DNA of 64,000 bases, taken from positions 1-64,000 of IMG/VR virus record IMGVR_UViG_3300049432_000151; one strand, given 5' to 3'. This DNA comes from a virus. Each line of letters starts with the position of its first letter. Position 1 is the first letter of the stretch. Below, in pieces: positions 1,633 through 27,773 of the stretch. Under the pieces are notes generated by a model. The model did no database searches. It was not told the DNA's origin and worked only from the letters and a program-made list of their open reading frames with translations. Both the position numbers and the translations under genes were made by a program.

Positions 1633-2287
1633 TGCCTCGGCTCCACTTCGCAGAATTGCGAATCCACGTGCGCAGCGCTGCATCCCAGTCCTTGAATGAC
1701 GACCCTTTTGCCGTGTGGTGATCCACGAACGCTCCAACCTCTTCCTCGAAGTCGAGCATCGGAAACTTCTCAGCGGTCCATCGCTTCACTGAGTCACCTG
1801 GACTGAAGGAACCCGCATTCGCGCCCGCGCGCGGTTTATTGGACTTGTCTTCTTCTTCTCTTCTCTTCTCTTCTCTTCTAGGGGAAAGCGCGGGAGAATC
1901 CGGCGCTTTCCCGCAGCCGAGAGCCGAGACCACCTGAACGGCGGAGAGCGGCGCACCGCTCACCGCGGGGTAGCGACTCTCGGTGCGACGATCGATCCGC
2001 TGGTGCTCGTCATGCTTCGCGACCTGAAGGAGCACGCGGTCGTCTGCGATGTACGCGATGACGACACCAACGCTGACCATCTCTGCAACCGCGGTGGCGA
2101 AATCGGCGAGCTTTCGTTTCGAGAGCGGCTTCGTCTTGGCCTTGAGGACGGCCGGCGCCGCCTCAATGCGGCCGAAGTCGTCAACGTGAATGACGATGCG
2201 GTCGAACAGAAGCTGAGCCCACTCTGACATCCACTCGATCGATTCCGAGTAGCTGATGCTTTGGCTCAGCAGTCGACCTCTCGGCAT
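1424..2287 (-). CDS. Phage replication initiator (DnaD/DnaT-like)
   Basis: A 287-residue protein. The N-terminal 110 residues match the phage replisome organiser type: MPRGRLLSQSISYSESIEWM, then AQLLFDRIVIHVDDFGRIEA, a winged-helix-like region seen next to DnaC genes. A low-complexity Arg/Glu linker (about residues 137-148) follows, then a DnaD/DnaT-like short helical segment with WDAALRTWIRN. The C-terminal ~70 residues are Ser/Gly/Arg rich and lie over the start of the DnaC-like gene. It probably binds the origin and hands over to the loader. ATG 2287 overlaps the upstream stop. Confidence 0.75.
   Translation of the reverse strand: MPRGRLLSQSISYSESIEWMSEWAQLLFDRIVIHVDDFGRIEAAPAVLKAKTKPLSKRKLADFATAVAEMVSVGVVIAYIADDRVLLQVAKHDEHQRIDRRTESRYPAVSGAPLSAVQVVSALGCGKAPDSPALSPRREEKRREEEDKSNKPRAGANAGSFSPGDSVKRWTAEKFPMLDFEEEVGAFVDHHTAKGSSFKDWDAALRTWIRNSAKWSRGNGRSPSSSGAKGTADRADARTAAPDSGRSAQSGSGRKRFEHRSAADVLANRGVHPVSSGTTGGPDDPVR
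1856..1879. repeat. TTCTC pentanucleotide tandem repeat inside a gene
   Basis: Four tandem TTCTC units plus TTCT (GAGAA/AGAAG on the coding strand) lie in the replication initiator gene and encode its Arg/Glu linker. A gain or loss of one unit would shift the frame and remove the C-terminal DnaD/DnaT-like segment. I see the repeat directly; variability is not shown. Confidence 0.7.
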
Positions 2288-3072
2288 CAGTTTTCCTTCC
2301 GTGTGACGTCGTCGGTAGCGGTGACTGCAGAAATGAGTTCATTCGCGCACCGAAGTGGGTCCGCGTGAATCTCTGACCCGGCAAAACGAATAGGCGTGTA
2401 GCCGAGTGATACGAGCATTCGGTCACGAGACCTGTCGGACGCGAATTTCGCTCGATCGCTGTGGTAATCGAAGCCGTCGCACTCGACGACCCACAGCCGG
2501 TCACTCCGCTGCGAATACACCACCGAGTCGGGACGGATGTGCTCATCTGTGAACGCGGGCTGAACAGCGACATGGATGCCGTAGCGACCACCGAGCACGA
2601 CATCGCTCAGGTAGTCTTTGGCGGCCGATCGCGCTTCGGTATCAGACTGACGAGCCGCCTCGCGCATAAGTTCGTCGTGATCGGGAAGTTGAAGAAACTC
2701 CTCGAGAGTCCTTTCCCATCTCCGCAGATCAGCGTGGTGGGCGCGTATCATCGTGCTGTTGCTCGGGCTGTGAAGTTGGCAGCCGAAAGGACCCAGTCGC
2801 CACACGCCGAGGGCGACAACGGAAAGGAAGAATGCGCGCTCGATCGGCGACTCGCAATGATCGAACACGCGGTCAACCAGGGCGCTATAACGCGTGTGCA
2901 GCGCACTCGCATACACCGCGGCCGAACTGGCGAGATCTGCCGCGGCGAACCACCTCTTTGCAGTCTGGTCAACGAAGTATCCGATGACTCGCCCTGCGGC
3001 CTGGCGATCATCGGAAGCACTGCGGATCATTTGTGCCGAATCCTGCGGAAACGATGGGTGACTGGGTCGCAT
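2287..3072 (-). CDS. DUF559/Vsr-like PD-(D/E)XK endonuclease
   Basis: The start is ATG 3072, because AGGAGG lies 4 nt upstream; a 10-residue longer start at 3102 lacks this site. The protein is 261 residues. The C-terminal half shows the Vsr/DUF559 pattern: SPIE near residue 75, then RPDSVVY and VVECDGFDYHSD, which supply the acidic metal-binding residues, then a basic helix (RDRMLVSLGY). It probably nicks or cleaves DNA, perhaps for mismatch repair linked to the nearby methyltransferase or for host DNA attack. It is the first gene after the plus-strand insert at 3287-3658. Specificity cannot be inferred. Confidence 0.7.
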   Translation of the reverse strand: MRPSHPSFPQDSAQMIRSASDDRQAAGRVIGYFVDQTAKRWFAAADLASSAAVYASALHTRYSALVDRVFDHCESPIERAFFLSVVALGVWRLGPFGCQLHSPSNSTMIRAHHADLRRWERTLEEFLQLPDHDELMREAARQSDTEARSAAKDYLSDVVLGGRYGIHVAVQPAFTDEHIRPDSVVYSQRSDRLWVVECDGFDYHSDRAKFASDRSRDRMLVSLGYTPIRFAGSEIHADPLRCANELISAVTATDDVTRKEN

Positions 3073-3663: not shown

Positions 3664-4404
3664 TCACGCGGCCACCTCGCCGAAGAGCGACCGCTGCGTC
3701 GGCATCCGCTCAATCCAGTCAGCGAATCGCGCCGCCTCGCGCCAGTCGTTTGCACTGCGACCGTTCTTCCGGGCGTTGAAGCTCCACGCCATTGAGTCTG
3801 CGGAGTGAAGGCAGTCGCGCACCGTCTGGCTGGCAAGCGCCGTCATTTTCAGGCCGAAGCCGTGAAGCCGAAGATCAGGACGCAGCGTTCTGATTGCGAG
3901 GAGGATCGATTCGATCTCGCGAACGTTCGCGTTGCGCTTGCAGACTGATCCGACGCCGACCCACGTCCCAGGCGTGAGCCGCGACCCATACGCACGCAGA
4001 TGCAGAACGTAATCGTCGATCGTGTAGCCCTGCAGCACCGGCATCACATGAATGTCGAATCGGACAGCCGCGCGCATTGCGTCGTACCTCTCGATCGTCA
4101 GTCGCTGATGCTCGAGCACCGATAGTCCTGTCTTGGCCACGATCCACGGTTCGCACATGTAGTCCTGCGAAACCGCCGCGAGCATGCGACCACACCTGGC
4201 CCAGCGGTGAACCTGCTCCACGTACTCCTCCACGGACGCGCGATACCGCCCGTGAGTTGCGATTTCGCTGAACGCACCGGAGTCCATGATCCAGTCGCCG
4301 ACCGAGAAATCGGATCGCCGAGAGCGCAGACGGCTGACGCTGACGAACGAACGGCCGAAATGTCTCGCGTCCGAAGGTTGATGGAGGCCGACGAAGAACT
4401 TCAC
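3664..4404 (-). CDS. dpdA-like: DpdA-like deazapurine DNA base-exchange enzyme
   Basis: A 246-residue protein related to tRNA-guanine transglycosylase. Visible anchors are MDSGAFSEI (Asp41, the TGT DSG(G/A)F nucleophile region), MPVLQGYTIDDYV (compare the TGT VQG loop), WVGVGSVCKRN, LRLHGFGLK and CLHSADSMAWSF. These match the phage DpdA family, which replaces guanine in DNA with 7-deazaguanine derivatives and so blocks restriction. TGT-type zinc cysteines are not evident, as in other short DpdA proteins. It starts at GTG 4404, overlapping the small gene upstream, downstream of a cytosine methyltransferase. No preQ0 synthesis genes (FolE, QueC, QueD, QueE) are in the window, so the substrate would come from the host or another part of the phage. 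Confidence 0.75.
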   Translation of the reverse strand: MKFFVGLHQPSDARHFGRSFVSVSRLRSRRSDFSVGDWIMDSGAFSEIATHGRYRASVEEYVEQVHRWARCGRMLAAVSQDYMCEPWIVAKTGLSVLEHQRLTIERYDAMRAAVRFDIHVMPVLQGYTIDDYVLHLRAYGSRLTPGTWVGVGSVCKRNANVREIESILLAIRTLRPDLRLHGFGLKMTALASQTVRDCLHSADSMAWSFNARKNGRSANDWREAARFADWIERMPTQRSLFGEVAA

Positions 4405-4574
4405 GCCGCCACCCCCAATCGTCGAGCCTTGTACTCAAGCGCGCGCGCCGCGTAGCGGTTACGACTCGCCGCGTTGTTGCAGGCTCGGCAGCCTCCACGG
4501 TTGAGACGGTTAGCCTTCGTCATCCGGTGTAGACCGCCGATACAGATGACGAGACGGGGACGACCGCGTTTCAT
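4401..4574 (-). CDS. Small HNH-associated-type zinc protein
   Basis: 57 residues from ATG 4574, overlapping both neighbours by 4 nt. It has the pattern C-x-G-L-H...N...C-x-x-C, reminiscent of short phage proteins annotated as HNH-like or zinc-finger. It is very basic (Arg-rich C-terminal helix) and so probably binds nucleic acid. It sits between the methyltransferase and the DpdA-like gene, suggesting a role in DNA modification. No catalytic His-Asn-His set is complete. Confidence 0.6.
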   Translation of the reverse strand: MKRGRPRLVICIGGLHRMTKANRLNRGGCRACNNAASRNRYAARALEYKARRLGVAA

Positions 4575-5806
4575 GCGATCACCTCGCCTCTCCGCACTCG
4601 GTTGATCCGCGCAAAGATCCATTCCGCGACAACTGGAACAATGGCGTTTCCGATACCGCGGTAGCGTGCGCCATCCGGCCCTTCGATGCAGATCGGACAC
4701 AAGTCCAGTGATCGGGGTAACCCTGCAGGCGTTCGCACTCCAGCGGCGTCAACCGTCGCACCGAGGACGAGGTTGACGGGGCCGATGCCAGCGCTTCCGG
4801 CGGAGTCGTAGGTGCGCCCAGCGTTGCTGAGGATCGGGCGCGCGACGATGTAGTTTTCGCGCGACTCGTCAAACTTGTCGTTGCCGCCTGCGGTGAGAGG
4901 TTTGGCGACGACGAGTCGATTTCCCGCCGCTTCATCGACGCTGTAGCTACGGCCGCCGGTTCGTACGTCGACGCTGCCGGCGACGAGGAGATTGTGATGC
5001 TCGTCGCCGGCAGGTCCGCTGCTGCCCTTCGCCCACTTCGCGCTGATCGCCTGCTGGACGATCGCATGGTCACACTGCTGGTCGAGTGTGAAGCAGACGC
5101 CGCTCTCGGAGACTCCGAGCCCGTTCTGCTTTCGCACGGCTCCTCGAGTTGCGTTCTGGATGACGAAGGGCGTGTTGAGATCGGTCGTTCGCTGACCGCC
5201 CTGAGTGTTGCTTCCAAGCGTGCCGGCAACTTCCGTCCCCGCTTCGCCGCCCGACGCAGGATCCCGATCGCTGCGCGCTGGCTCAAAAAGAACCGCAGCG
5301 GCACGTTCCCACTCTCCAGAGTGATGTCCGACAAGGAACACGCGCTCGCGTCGTTGGGCGACGCCGAAAAATTGAGCGTTGAGAATCCGGTACGCGACGC
5401 CGTACCCGCACTGGACCAGCGAATCGAGGACGATCGCCATGTCGCGTCCGCGGTTCGAGGAAAGTAGCCCAGGGACGTTCTCAAAAACGAACCACTCAGG
5501 CCGAGACGCCTGAAGTATTCGTACAAGCTGGAAGAAAAGCCCGCTCCGCGAAGCCGCAAGTCCTCCTCGACGCCCGGCGACGCTGAGGTCCTGACACGGG
5601 AAACCGCCGGTGAGGATGTTGATGTGGGGCAGGTCTCGAGAGTCGCGGATGTCTCGATCGAAGGTGAGTCCCGGGTTTCCGAGTCGAGCGGCGTAAACAG
5701 CCCGCGCTGCATCGTTGATCTCGGCTGCCCAGACGGTCGACCAGCCGACTCGGCGAGCTGCAAGTCCGAACCCGCCGATGCCGCAGAACGCGTCGCCATG
5801 CTTCAC
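4571..5806 (-). CDS. DNA cytosine-C5 methyltransferase
   Basis: A 411-residue protein with the standard motifs. Motif I is AFCGIGGFGLA. Motif IV is GGFPCQDLS, with the catalytic Cys near residue 70. Motif VI is ENVPGLL, motif VIII is QRRERVFLVG, and a long variable region (about residues 180-350) leads to motif X RYRGIGNAIVP. It methylates cytosine in a specific DNA site, most likely to protect phage DNA from restriction; no cognate restriction enzyme is adjacent. GTG 5806 is used, overlapping the upstream stop. Its coupling to a DpdA-like gene suggests layered DNA protection. Confidence 0.93.
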   Translation of the reverse strand: MKHGDAFCGIGGFGLAARRVGWSTVWAAEINDAARAVYAARLGNPGLTFDRDIRDSRDLPHINILTGGFPCQDLSVAGRRGGLAASRSGLFFQLVRILQASRPEWFVFENVPGLLSSNRGRDMAIVLDSLVQCGYGVAYRILNAQFFGVAQRRERVFLVGHHSGEWERAAAVLFEPARSDRDPASGGEAGTEVAGTLGSNTQGGQRTTDLNTPFVIQNATRGAVRKQNGLGVSESGVCFTLDQQCDHAIVQQAISAKWAKGSSGPAGDEHHNLLVAGSVDVRTGGRSYSVDEAAGNRLVVAKPLTAGGNDKFDESRENYIVARPILSNAGRTYDSAGSAGIGPVNLVLGATVDAAGVRTPAGLPRSLDLCPICIEGPDGARYRGIGNAIVPVVAEWIFARINRVRRGEVIA

Positions 5807-16626: not shown

Positions 16627-16666
16627 AAACGAGACTCAATTTAGGCAACGTGTCTCGTTTTGTCAA
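16627..16666 (-). promoter_or_regulatory. Leftward early promoter with repressor operator
   Basis: Read on the minus strand: TTGACA (16666-16661), a 17-nt spacer, then TAAATT, a near-consensus sigma-70 promoter about 10 nt from the Cro-like ATG. A perfect 9-bp inverted repeat, AAACGAGAC (16627-16635) and GTCTCGTTT (16652-16660), places one half-site in the spacer and the other downstream of the -10. A further GTCTCG half-site lies at about 16684-16689. This is very likely the operator bound by the divergent repressor. Confidence 0.85.
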
Positions 16667-16715
16667 TAGAAACTTCTTACGAAGTCTCGAATACGCGACT
16701 ACCGTGCGGGAAGGA

Positions 16716-17696
16716 ATGCCGAAAAGATCGTCGGGAACGTCGCCGCGCGGCAGTGGCGGAGCCGTGGCTACGAGACAAATTGCGCTCCGGCAACTGGCTG
16801 CTAAGCTCGCAGCGCTGATCCCATCCGGCGCGGTCGACGCAGCCGCTCACGAAACAGGATTGAACCGGTCGACGATCTATAAATGGGCGCGTGGTCAACA
16901 GCAACCCGGCGCTATCGACTTGGCCGTGCTGGCGAACTACCTCGGAGTGATGGTCTCGGACCTTCTCGAAGACAAGCCGCTTCCTCGTGAGGCGACGCCG
17001 TACGAACGGAACGCAGCGTACAGACACCTCATTAACAGTCTCGAGCAAGTATCAGAAGCCGACCGCGAAGAAGTGATTCGGCAAGCCCTGTGGGTAGTGG
17101 CGCGGATCCGAGTTTCAGCTCTGCCGACCATCGTGCCGCTCGCCGAGAACGTGATCGCGTTCCCGACGCAACCGGACGATAGTGGCGATTTTCCCCCGCC
17201 GCCGATCGAGCCCTCCGATTTCATCGAGAAAGACACGGACTACCCGCGGCCGCTGCACACGTGGGTTCTGGAAGTGCCGGAGGTGGCTGCAGGCCCGCCG
17301 CGCCATGACGACGTTCTCCTCCCTACCTCGGAAGCTGAAGTGCTGAACACGTTTCGAGAAGCCGTTCCGAGCACAGCTCGCGAAGTCCGCGACGACCGCG
17401 TCCGCGTCATCAAGATCTACGGGAACTCAATGCATCCGGTGTTGCGCAACGGTTGGAAGGTTCGGATCGACCCCGCGCGATCGCTGTTCAGGCCCGGCAA
17501 AGCGATCGTTATGGTCTACATCAAGGACGAAGGATCGACGATCGGCCTCCTAGCCGAAGATGGCAAAGGAGGACTGAAGATCGTTAAGAGGAACCCCGAT
17601 TACGGTGGACCCGTGGAGATCCCGTTACGTGCCGGCGAGTGGTACCCGGTCGGCACGGTGACCACGATCGTCGAGGCGCCGGTGGACATCGAATGA
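16716..17696 (+). CDS. Phage repressor, XRE HTH with S24/LexA-type peptidase
   Basis: 326 residues from ATG 16716; the start is uncertain because the purine run AAGGA is close to the ATG and a GTG lies further in. An XRE helix-turn-helix is near residues 42-75 (AAHETGLNRSTIYKW). A Pro-rich linker follows, then a C-terminal S24 domain with GNSMHPVLRNGWKV (Ser238) and IVKRN (Lys291), the autocleavage dyad. RecA-stimulated self-cleavage would induce the prophage. It faces the Cro-like gene across the operator, and its stop overlaps the start of the FG-GAP gene (ATGA). Confidence 0.92.
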   Translation: MPKRSSGTSPRGSGGAVATRQIALRQLAAKLAALIPSGAVDAAAHETGLNRSTIYKWARGQQQPGAIDLAVLANYLGVMVSDLLEDKPLPREATPYERNAAYRHLINSLEQVSEADREEVIRQALWVVARIRVSALPTIVPLAENVIAFPTQPDDSGDFPPPPIEPSDFIEKDTDYPRPLHTWVLEVPEVAAGPPRHDDVLLPTSEAEVLNTFREAVPSTAREVRDDRVRVIKIYGNSMHPVLRNGWKVRIDPARSLFRPGKAIVMVYIKDEGSTIGLLAEDGKGGLKIVKRNPDYGGPVEIPLRAGEWYPVGTVTTIVEAPVDIE

Positions 17697-26035: not shown

Positions 26036-27124
26036 TCAGCGCACAACGCGCAGCGCCGTCTGATCTTTGAAATAGATGTCTCGCAGCCTTGACTCGACCG
26101 TCATGAGGTTGTGCTCGAAGTCGTCGGCGGCCCAGCCGAGGTCCGTCTCGCACGTCGTGATCACCTTCTGCATCAGCGACGGCTGCTCGAGCGTTATGTC
26201 GAGTTCACGCGGTTCCCTCTTCCGGAATCCAAGAGCGGAAAACTTTGACCACATGTAGCGCTGCTGGTTTGCGGTCAGTTTGCCCAGATCACCGGCACGT
26301 TTCAGCAGCGATGCCATGGATACCTTCCAGTACGGTTTCAAGCGGGCAAGCTGCGGCAACGTGATGTTGTTCAGGCTCGTGCGAATGTCGACCGCAGGCA
26401 TCAAGAACTCCGCTGCGAACGCGTCTGCCTGCGCCTCCATCTCCGGGTTTGGGTGCGTGTGCATGACCAAGTGGCCGACCTCATGCGCAAGCGAATAGCG
26501 GTACCGGTCTCCCGGGAGACAGGAGTTCAGAAAGAACATCGGCGGCAAGCCTGGGTACCAGCGGCTAACCGCATCGAGGAGCGTCGTCTCAAAATCGAGC
26601 ACGAACACCAGGCCACCTGCGCCCTCAACAAGTTGAGTGAGGTTGCTCACCGGGCCCGACGGCACGCGCCACATGGCGCGGACGTGGCGTGCTATCTCAA
26701 CGGCGTCCCGCGATTCGAGCGGGTCGTCGACGTCGATCAGCGGAAAGACATAGTCGCTCTCGAAGTCGATCGATTTGAGAATCTCTTCGAGGTGAATCCG
26801 AATGGTGTCAATGAGCGCGTGAAGGCGCGCGAGCTGCCTCTTCGGCATGATCGCGCGCTTACGGTGGTAAATCTCCGTCACCCCTGTGCCGCTGTGCCGC
26901 CGGCCTGGCCGAGTAAAAAAGGCGGGTGTCCGCCCAAGCTGTGCGCTCAGCCGCTCGAGGAAAGCGTTATCAACGCCAGTCTCCTGAGCTTCCATCCTCG
27001 ACAGCTTTCCTTGAGCGATCTCCAACCGCGCAGCGAGCTCCGTCTGCGTCAAGCCATCGGCTTCGCGCGCGAGCACGAGCATTTCTGGATTGATCGAGAT
27101 GCGATCGCCGAACAAGTCAGCCAT
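26036..27124 (-). CDS. XRE HTH - ImmA/IrrE metallopeptidase (antitoxin-like)
   Basis: 362 residues from ATG 27124. Residues 8-60 are an XRE helix-turn-helix (LTQTELAARLEIAQGKLSRM). The M78/ImmA-IrrE domain has LAHEVGHLVMH (His214, Glu215, His218) and AQADAFAAEFLMP (third metal ligand and AxxFA-type helix). Such proteins repress their own operon and cleave partners or repressors. The gene overlaps the upstream partner by 8 nt (ATGGCTGA). The layout matches HTH-IrrE toxin-antitoxin or defence pairs such as RosmerTA, although identity with that system is unproven. Confidence 0.83.
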   Translation of the reverse strand: MADLFGDRISINPEMLVLAREADGLTQTELAARLEIAQGKLSRMEAQETGVDNAFLERLSAQLGRTPAFFTRPGRRHSGTGVTEIYHRKRAIMPKRQLARLHALIDTIRIHLEEILKSIDFESDYVFPLIDVDDPLESRDAVEIARHVRAMWRVPSGPVSNLTQLVEGAGGLVFVLDFETTLLDAVSRWYPGLPPMFFLNSCLPGDRYRYSLAHEVGHLVMHTHPNPEMEAQADAFAAEFLMPAVDIRTSLNNITLPQLARLKPYWKVSMASLLKRAGDLGKLTANQQRYMWSKFSALGFRKREPRELDITLEQPSLMQKVITTCETDLGWAADDFEHNLMTVESRLRDIYFKDQTALRVVR

Positions 27125-27773
27125 TCTTCTTCTCGTCTGATTTGGATTTGAAGGGCACAACCTTCGCTGCGTCCTTCTTTACTCTTACGGTCGTCTGCGG
27201 CGCTGAATGCCGGGGTGGCATCGCGGAGATCGGCTGCGTGCGCGCGTTCGGGTAAGGAAGATCGATCGAGTAGGCGACGCTGTCGACGCCAACCTGCTTC
27301 GGGAAGACGACGTGAGCGGATGAGATCGCGGTACCGAAACGATCCAGGATGTAGCCAGCATCTAGACAAGCTGTGCTTTCAAGGAAGCCAGCCATGTCGC
27401 CATTTGCGAATTGCAGCGACTGCTGAGTCTCAATGTTCCGCGACCGCTTGTGAGAATCGAGCTTTTTGAAACGTACGCAAGCCGCGCCGTCGATGACCAA
27501 CAGGAACATACCGCGCCGTTCCACAAATTGAATCCCGGCGACACCGTCGAACCGGCGCTTCACAGCGGCGACGATAAAATCGCGAATGTCAGAAGCCTGA
27601 CTGCGAGCGTGAAGCTTGATCCTCTGCTCCTCCGGCAGGCGAAAATACTCGTCGAACCCTTCATGAACGCAGTTGGCGATCTCCTGAAGATGCGGCCGGA
27701 GGTGCCGTTTGACCTTCTCTCTCGGTATCCAGACTTTGACGTCACCCTTCACTTTTACCTCTCTCTCTAACAT
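27117..27773 (-). CDS. Partner of the XRE-ImmA/IrrE protein (toxin candidate)
   Basis: 218 residues. Strand/helix fold with RRFDGVAGIQFVERRGMFLL and VIDGAACVRFKKLDS in the middle. The C-terminal 60 residues are a Lys/Pro-rich disordered tail (SAMPPRHSAPQ, then VVPFKSKSDEKK). No catalytic motif was recognised. It is the first gene of a two- or three-gene unit and overlaps the ImmA/IrrE gene by 8 nt. This organisation, with an autoregulatory-looking promoter, is that of a toxin-antitoxin module; which gene is the toxin is an inference. Confidence 0.6.
   Translation of the reverse strand: MLEREVKVKGDVKVWIPREKVKRHLRPHLQEIANCVHEGFDEYFRLPEEQRIKLHARSQASDIRDFIVAAVKRRFDGVAGIQFVERRGMFLLVIDGAACVRFKKLDSHKRSRNIETQQSLQFANGDMAGFLESTACLDAGYILDRFGTAISSAHVVFPKQVGVDSVAYSIDLPYPNARTQPISAMPPRHSAPQTTVRVKKDAAKVVPFKSKSDEKKNG

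Follow-up and report, generated by a model that had tools for sequence, protein, structure and literature searches.

A short phage DpdA that probably uses a salvaged 7-deazaguanine base, and the linkage of its relatives to YhhQ-family transporter genes

The 246-aa protein encoded near the left end of the window (the whole 64,000-nucleotide stretch of viral DNA that we analysed) is probably an active singleton DpdA, which would exchange guanines in DNA for a 7-deazaguanine base supplied by the host or by import, as a layer of protection against restriction. DpdA genes lacking a preQ0 pathway were the largest DpdA category in a 2019 survey, with 76 phages, and singleton DpdAs were already set out there as separate groups (PMC6884629). 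The window DpdA itself is thus a further example of a known category, and fits the third group of that survey (Hutinet 2019) in having no preQ0 synthesis genes in its possibly incomplete record. What is new here is the linkage of dpdA to a transporter gene in relatives and the occurrence of two DpdA types in one phage, which together open a direct test.

The reading frame is present exactly as the preliminary description of this DNA had given it and is a conserved gene; the four motifs listed there (MDSGAF, VLQG, GVGSVCKRN and SADSMAWSF) were all found in the ORF at 4404..3664. Its GTG start lies at the same place as the start in relatives. The gene is the last of a tightly packed operon in the order C5 methyltransferase, Cys-rich protein, dpdA, in which each pair of neighbouring ORFs shares 4 bp. 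On the downstream side there are a small convergent gene and a nuclease gene.

2287-3072, minus strand: MTES_1575/DUF559 PD-(D/E)XK-type nuclease, near the methyltransferase-DpdA operon
3664..4404, minus strand: short singleton DpdA (PF23859), 246 aa, GTG start; PF23859 E=5.3e-47, phrog_1279 E=3.5e-69
4401..4574, minus strand: 57-aa basic Cys-rich protein, weakly HNH-like, the operon's middle gene; phrog_826 E=2.9e-4
4571..5806, minus strand: C5-cytosine DNA methyltransferase, 411 aa; PF00145 E=7.9e-54, phrog_116/phrog_363

Motifs I, IV, VI, VIII and X can all be read in the methyltransferase translation. The middle gene had been called a small basic zinc protein; the ORF stands, while the zinc assignment does not, the protein having no Pfam match and a weak HNH-family match alone (phrog_826 E=3e-4).

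Assignment to the TGT/DpdA superfamily, proposed earlier from motifs, is borne out by Pfam, by profile-profile comparison and by predicted structure. The protein scores 160.6 bits against PF23859, where the curated cut-off is 27, and phrog_1279 carries the label 'queuine tRNA-ribosyltransferase'. Against a profile built from three pathway DpdAs (Ares, CAjan and the long DpdA of G829, a 127-kb phage genome), the match reached 97.4% probability (E=1.5e-11), with the DSGAF, VGxGS/GGLVG loop, HGFG and DSxxW motifs aligned; the closest pathway-type DpdAs are only about 26% identical to the window DpdA, over part of the protein. An AlphaFold2 model computed from 14 aligned proteins of the window and of relative loci (pLDDT 90.8, pTM 0.88) allows the predicted fold to be called TGT-type with confidence. 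In a Foldseek search of the PDB it matched best the bacterial DNA preQ0 insertase DpdA (7ui4), followed by archaeal and bacterial TGTs. The window DpdA is much shorter than these enzymes and has no sequence-level match to them: no relevant chain was matched when the PDB was searched by sequence alone, and a single-sequence hhalign comparison with E. coli TGT returned nothing. Relatives are abundant, with tblastn matches in 399 phage records and 559 matching stretches in IMG/VR. Pfam, fold and conservation together rule out that the motifs arose by chance.

Residues D41, D81, Q125, G150, G152, C155 and D203 are invariant wherever the residue is present in 135 distinct sequences. Residue roles in PF23859 proteins are assigned from TGT by analogy. 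We take Asp41 to be at the position of the TGT general-acid/base Asp; by the same analogy Asp81 is the probable base-recognition Asp, Gln125 would be a TGT-like base-recognition Gln, at a position where pathway DpdAs have His or another residue, and Asp203 is the probable nucleophile.

4282..4284, minus strand: codon of Asp41 (MDSGAF), D in 133/133 distinct relatives, aligned with DSGAF of pathway DpdAs
4162..4164, minus strand: codon of Asp81 (QDxMCEP), D in 133/133 distinct relatives
4030..4032, minus strand: codon of Gln125 (VLQG), Q in 135/135 distinct relatives
3796..3798, minus strand: codon of Asp203 (SADSMAW), D in 133/133, aligned with VDSSxW of pathway DpdAs

Compared with its closest relative, at locus L027 (75% protein identity), the window gene has a dN of 0.20, a dS of 1.02 and a dN/dS of 0.20. 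The invariance of the proposed active site and this low ratio therefore indicate that the gene is maintained, by purifying selection.

The absence of FolE and QueC/D/E, noted earlier for the window, extends to the whole source record of 85,049 bases, itself possibly incomplete. With positive controls in place, no PF06508 (QueC), PF01242 (QueD/PTPS), PF01227 (FolE), PF04055 (radical SAM), PF01702 (TGT) or PF02592 (YhhQ) domain was found in that record, and FolE, QueD, QueC, QueE and YhhQ of CAjan gave no tblastn match there at E<0.1. Of 39 records in which the window DpdA has relatives, 37 likewise contain no QueC; the exceptions are a marginal partial match in G797 and a full QueC in G829. Of DpdB and the restriction operon dpdD-K, which stand beside dpdA in the bacterial dpd island, nothing was seen among the annotated neighbouring proteins of the window gene.

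In our sequence comparisons Ares (Rosebushvirus) stood in for Rosebush, and OSmaximus for Orion, which presumably carries the same B1 gene, given its cluster assignment. The singleton DpdAs of OSmaximus (B1) and Kratio match PF23859 with 467-567 bits; they share this family with the window DpdA at about 40-45% identity and come, like it, with no phage preQ0 genes. In contrast, the DpdAs of CAjan, Salmonella phage 7-11, Ares and G829 (long form) have no PF23859 match, and in the tree those of CAjan, Ares and G829 are separated from PF23859 by a long branch with full support, a placement to which the usual long-branch warning applies. The CAjan and Rosebush-type (Ares) enzymes are thus homologous to the window DpdA by profile-profile comparison, with DSGAF, HGxG and DSxxW aligned, but they stand outside PF23859 and have FolE, QueD, QueE and QueC alongside, whereas the window DpdA does neither.

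The DNA of CAjan and Rosebush has been shown to contain dPreQ0; among mycobacteriophages with a singleton DpdA, Orion was assayed, and its DNA contained none of the five 7-deazaguanine bases looked for (PMC6884629; for singleton DpdAs of B1 mycobacteriophages, see PMC9584339). In the literature examined, no PF23859 member is known to modify DNA, and the assay of Orion is the only one reported for this group. Since PF23859 lies apart from the DNA-modifying pathway DpdAs and Orion DNA is unmodified, modified DNA is not deducible from family membership, and the earlier statement that 7-deazaguanine in the phage DNA is implied goes too far. Orion's host, however, has no preQ0 (PMC6884629), so that the negative assay comes from a host without the precursor and not from a preQ0-competent one.

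The window further differs from these mycobacteriophages, whose host is a preQ0-free Mycobacterium, in its C5 methyltransferase operon. A C-terminal Cys/His motif is absent from the window's clade (0/61 clusters) and present in most of the other clade (54/73), where the Cys...NC motif at the C-terminus resembles a zinc site. Closer relatives are found in Sinorhizobium phage phiLM21 (p025/p026) and Rhizobium phage RHph_TM3_3_3 (EVB37_081), whose DpdAs are 54-56% identical to that of the window and which, like the window, have DNA methyltransferases nearby. In phiLM21 a YhhQ/PF02592 gene directly follows dpdA, whereas the window has none.

This arrangement recurs in relatives. A YhhQ-homologue profile was searched over 187 dpdA loci, equal to 134 after 90% clustering and drawn from the best 80 of each scan rather than at random. 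Among these 134 distinct loci a YhhQ gene adjoins dpdA on the same strand in 32, usually at a gap of tens of bases (755 at the largest), and the profile matched nowhere else in the flanks. All 8 of the dpdA-adjacent YhhQ proteins tested are PF02592 members above the curated cut-off, and from their family they are putative transporters. The gene lies downstream of dpdA in the window's clade (6/61) and upstream in the other clade (26/73), and the tree calls for about 16 gains or losses of the linkage, at least 3 of them forced by well-supported branches. Adjoining loci include L086, L088, L012, L020, L077, L101, L008, L009, L010, L011 and L017, as well as L116-L118, L120, L122-L124, L131 and others. 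The window phage itself does not carry this cassette, as its 85-kb record contains no PF02592 gene. YhhQ was uncorrelated with any phage group in the 2019 survey (PMC6884629), and in bacteria roughly 9% of dpd islands contain it (2025 preprint, PMC11888242). The principle of salvage is therefore already known, while a dpdA-yhhQ cassette in phages appears to be unreported in the literature that we searched.

DNA-modification genes are also concentrated beside dpdA. Counting C5, D12, N6/N4 and MT-A70 methyltransferases and Mom, and treating clusters of distinct loci as independent, 25 matches are at most 1 kb from dpdA and 27 are more distant, where 21% would be expected to be near (p=1.5e-5); all of the near matches are on the same strand as dpdA. 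For C5 methyltransferases alone, 11 of 20 matches are within 1 kb (p=9e-4). The coupling to a C5 methyltransferase that had been pointed out holds for the window, in the form of the operon, but not as a fixed partnership: homologues of the window's enzyme occur at only 6 of 102 relative loci, and an obligate partner was rejected. At L027 (864-5771) a D12 adenine methyltransferase, a Mom-family protein, dpdA and an N6/N4 methyltransferase follow each other in one run, upstream of which we observed a DUF5131 gene.

Both kinds of DpdA occur in G829. There a pathway-type DpdA stands beside QueC, QueD, QueE and FolE, and a second DpdA, of PF23859, lies about 8 kb away and 37 bp from a C5 methyltransferase. 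With both present in one genome, the two are thus probably not interchangeable.

L216 (G829:C1:30000-49900), 8.1-9.9 kb and 14.0-17.7 kb: the two DpdA regions of G829

With this in mind, one may propose how the window enzyme would work. A minimal TGT-fold enzyme would cut selected guanines out of DNA, with the phage genome as the likeliest target, and replace them by a 7-deazaguanine base such as preQ0, preQ1 or a close derivative. This base would be drawn ready-made from the host's queuosine pool, which would explain why the phage has no synthesis genes. Many relatives would enlarge the pool through their own YhhQ importer; the window phage has no importer, so its host would have to make or import the base, and the repeated linkage of its relatives to an import gene makes it probable that it borrows the base from the host. 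A 7-deazaguanine-type substrate is suggested by the adjacency of YhhQ/PF02592 genes to dpdA in relatives, and DNA as the target by the clustering of DNA methyltransferases beside dpdA and by the D12, Mom and N6/N4 genes at L027. Co-expressed with the C5 methyltransferase, the enzyme may act as one of the layers that shield phage DNA from restriction, a role that we infer by analogy with CAjan and from the methyltransferase neighbours. More tentatively, and as a suggestion that we would not yet call probable, PF23859 as a whole could be a distinct salvage-fed system of DNA base exchange, consisting of YhhQ plus a short DpdA or of a host-fed DpdA alone, placing a base other than dPreQ0 at restricted sites beside DNA methyltransferases and distinct in function from the pathway that places preQ0 genome-wide.

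Other readings of the same data deserve weight. A diverged DpdA might no longer use preQ0 and replace guanine with some other base obtained by salvage, for instance preQ1, queuine or a purine that is not a deazaguanine, possibly only at a few sequence-specific sites and together with a methyltransferase. We think this rather unlikely, though not negligibly so. The distance of PF23859 from the pathway DpdAs speaks for it, as do the TGT-like Gln of VLQG and the unique QDxMCEP motif, at places where the pathway enzymes diverge, the presence in G829 of a separate short DpdA next to one in a preQ0 cluster, hence not redundant, and the lack of any of the five assayed bases in Orion; on the other hand, the YhhQ/PF02592 partners suggest a preQ0- or preQ1-like base, and the catalytic motifs can be aligned to their counterparts in pathway DpdAs.

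It is considerably less likely that the protein is a tRNA-guanine transglycosylase by which the phage adjusts queuosine in the tRNA of its host. The name of phrog_1279 and the TGT fold would fit such an enzyme, and in bacteria YhhQ-family transporters do serve tRNA queuosine salvage (PMC11130926). However, the window DpdA has no PF01702 match, is only 246 aa long and belongs to a clade with no C-terminal Cys/His motif; the solved structure that its predicted fold matches best is that of a DNA enzyme, DNA methyltransferases and Mom are found beside members of its family, and the window has no tRNA genes. A tRNA TGT identity was set aside on the missing PF01702 match and the DNA-modification neighbours. 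That the gene is a functionless relic, kept in the window phage by hitch-hiking, seems very improbable: a record without a synthesis or transport gene and the unmodified DNA of Orion are what a relic would lead one to expect, but a proposed active site invariant over about 135 lineages, a dN/dS of 0.2, an intact overlapping operon and a very wide spread argue against it. For the reading that we favour, an active DpdA fed by the host or by import, the dpdA-yhhQ cassette points both to the type of small molecule to supply and to an isolated phage worth assaying, phiLM21.

The Paraburkholderia genome around one dpdA relative (L013) has QueC and is a preQ0-competent host, and the Planosporangium genome around another (L014) has no QueC. 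For the window phage, we tried to read the host from an M13 peptidase gene, and no assignment resulted, as identities plateau at about 55-58% within one Pseudomonadota order. This peptidase and a GGDEF response regulator lie beyond the window, at 78703-82965 of the record (L019), near its right end; both look bacterial, and the DNA there is probably that of the host, which suggests a provirus edge. A search for a tyrosine integrase (PF00589) found none. Two regulators in the window, an S24/HTH repressor at 16650-17696 and a second one with a metallo-protease-like part at 26036-27160, are consistent with a temperate phage. Also beyond the window, consecutive genes at record positions 73572-77036 (L018/L019) encode a Vsr endonuclease, another C5 methyltransferase and a HATPase_c_3 protein, resembling a restriction-modification island. 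Between 17639 and 24783 of the window, genes for an FG-GAP repeat protein, a protein resembling alpha/beta hydrolases and a PPC-domain protein of 755 aa stand amid phage modules and are possibly cargo.
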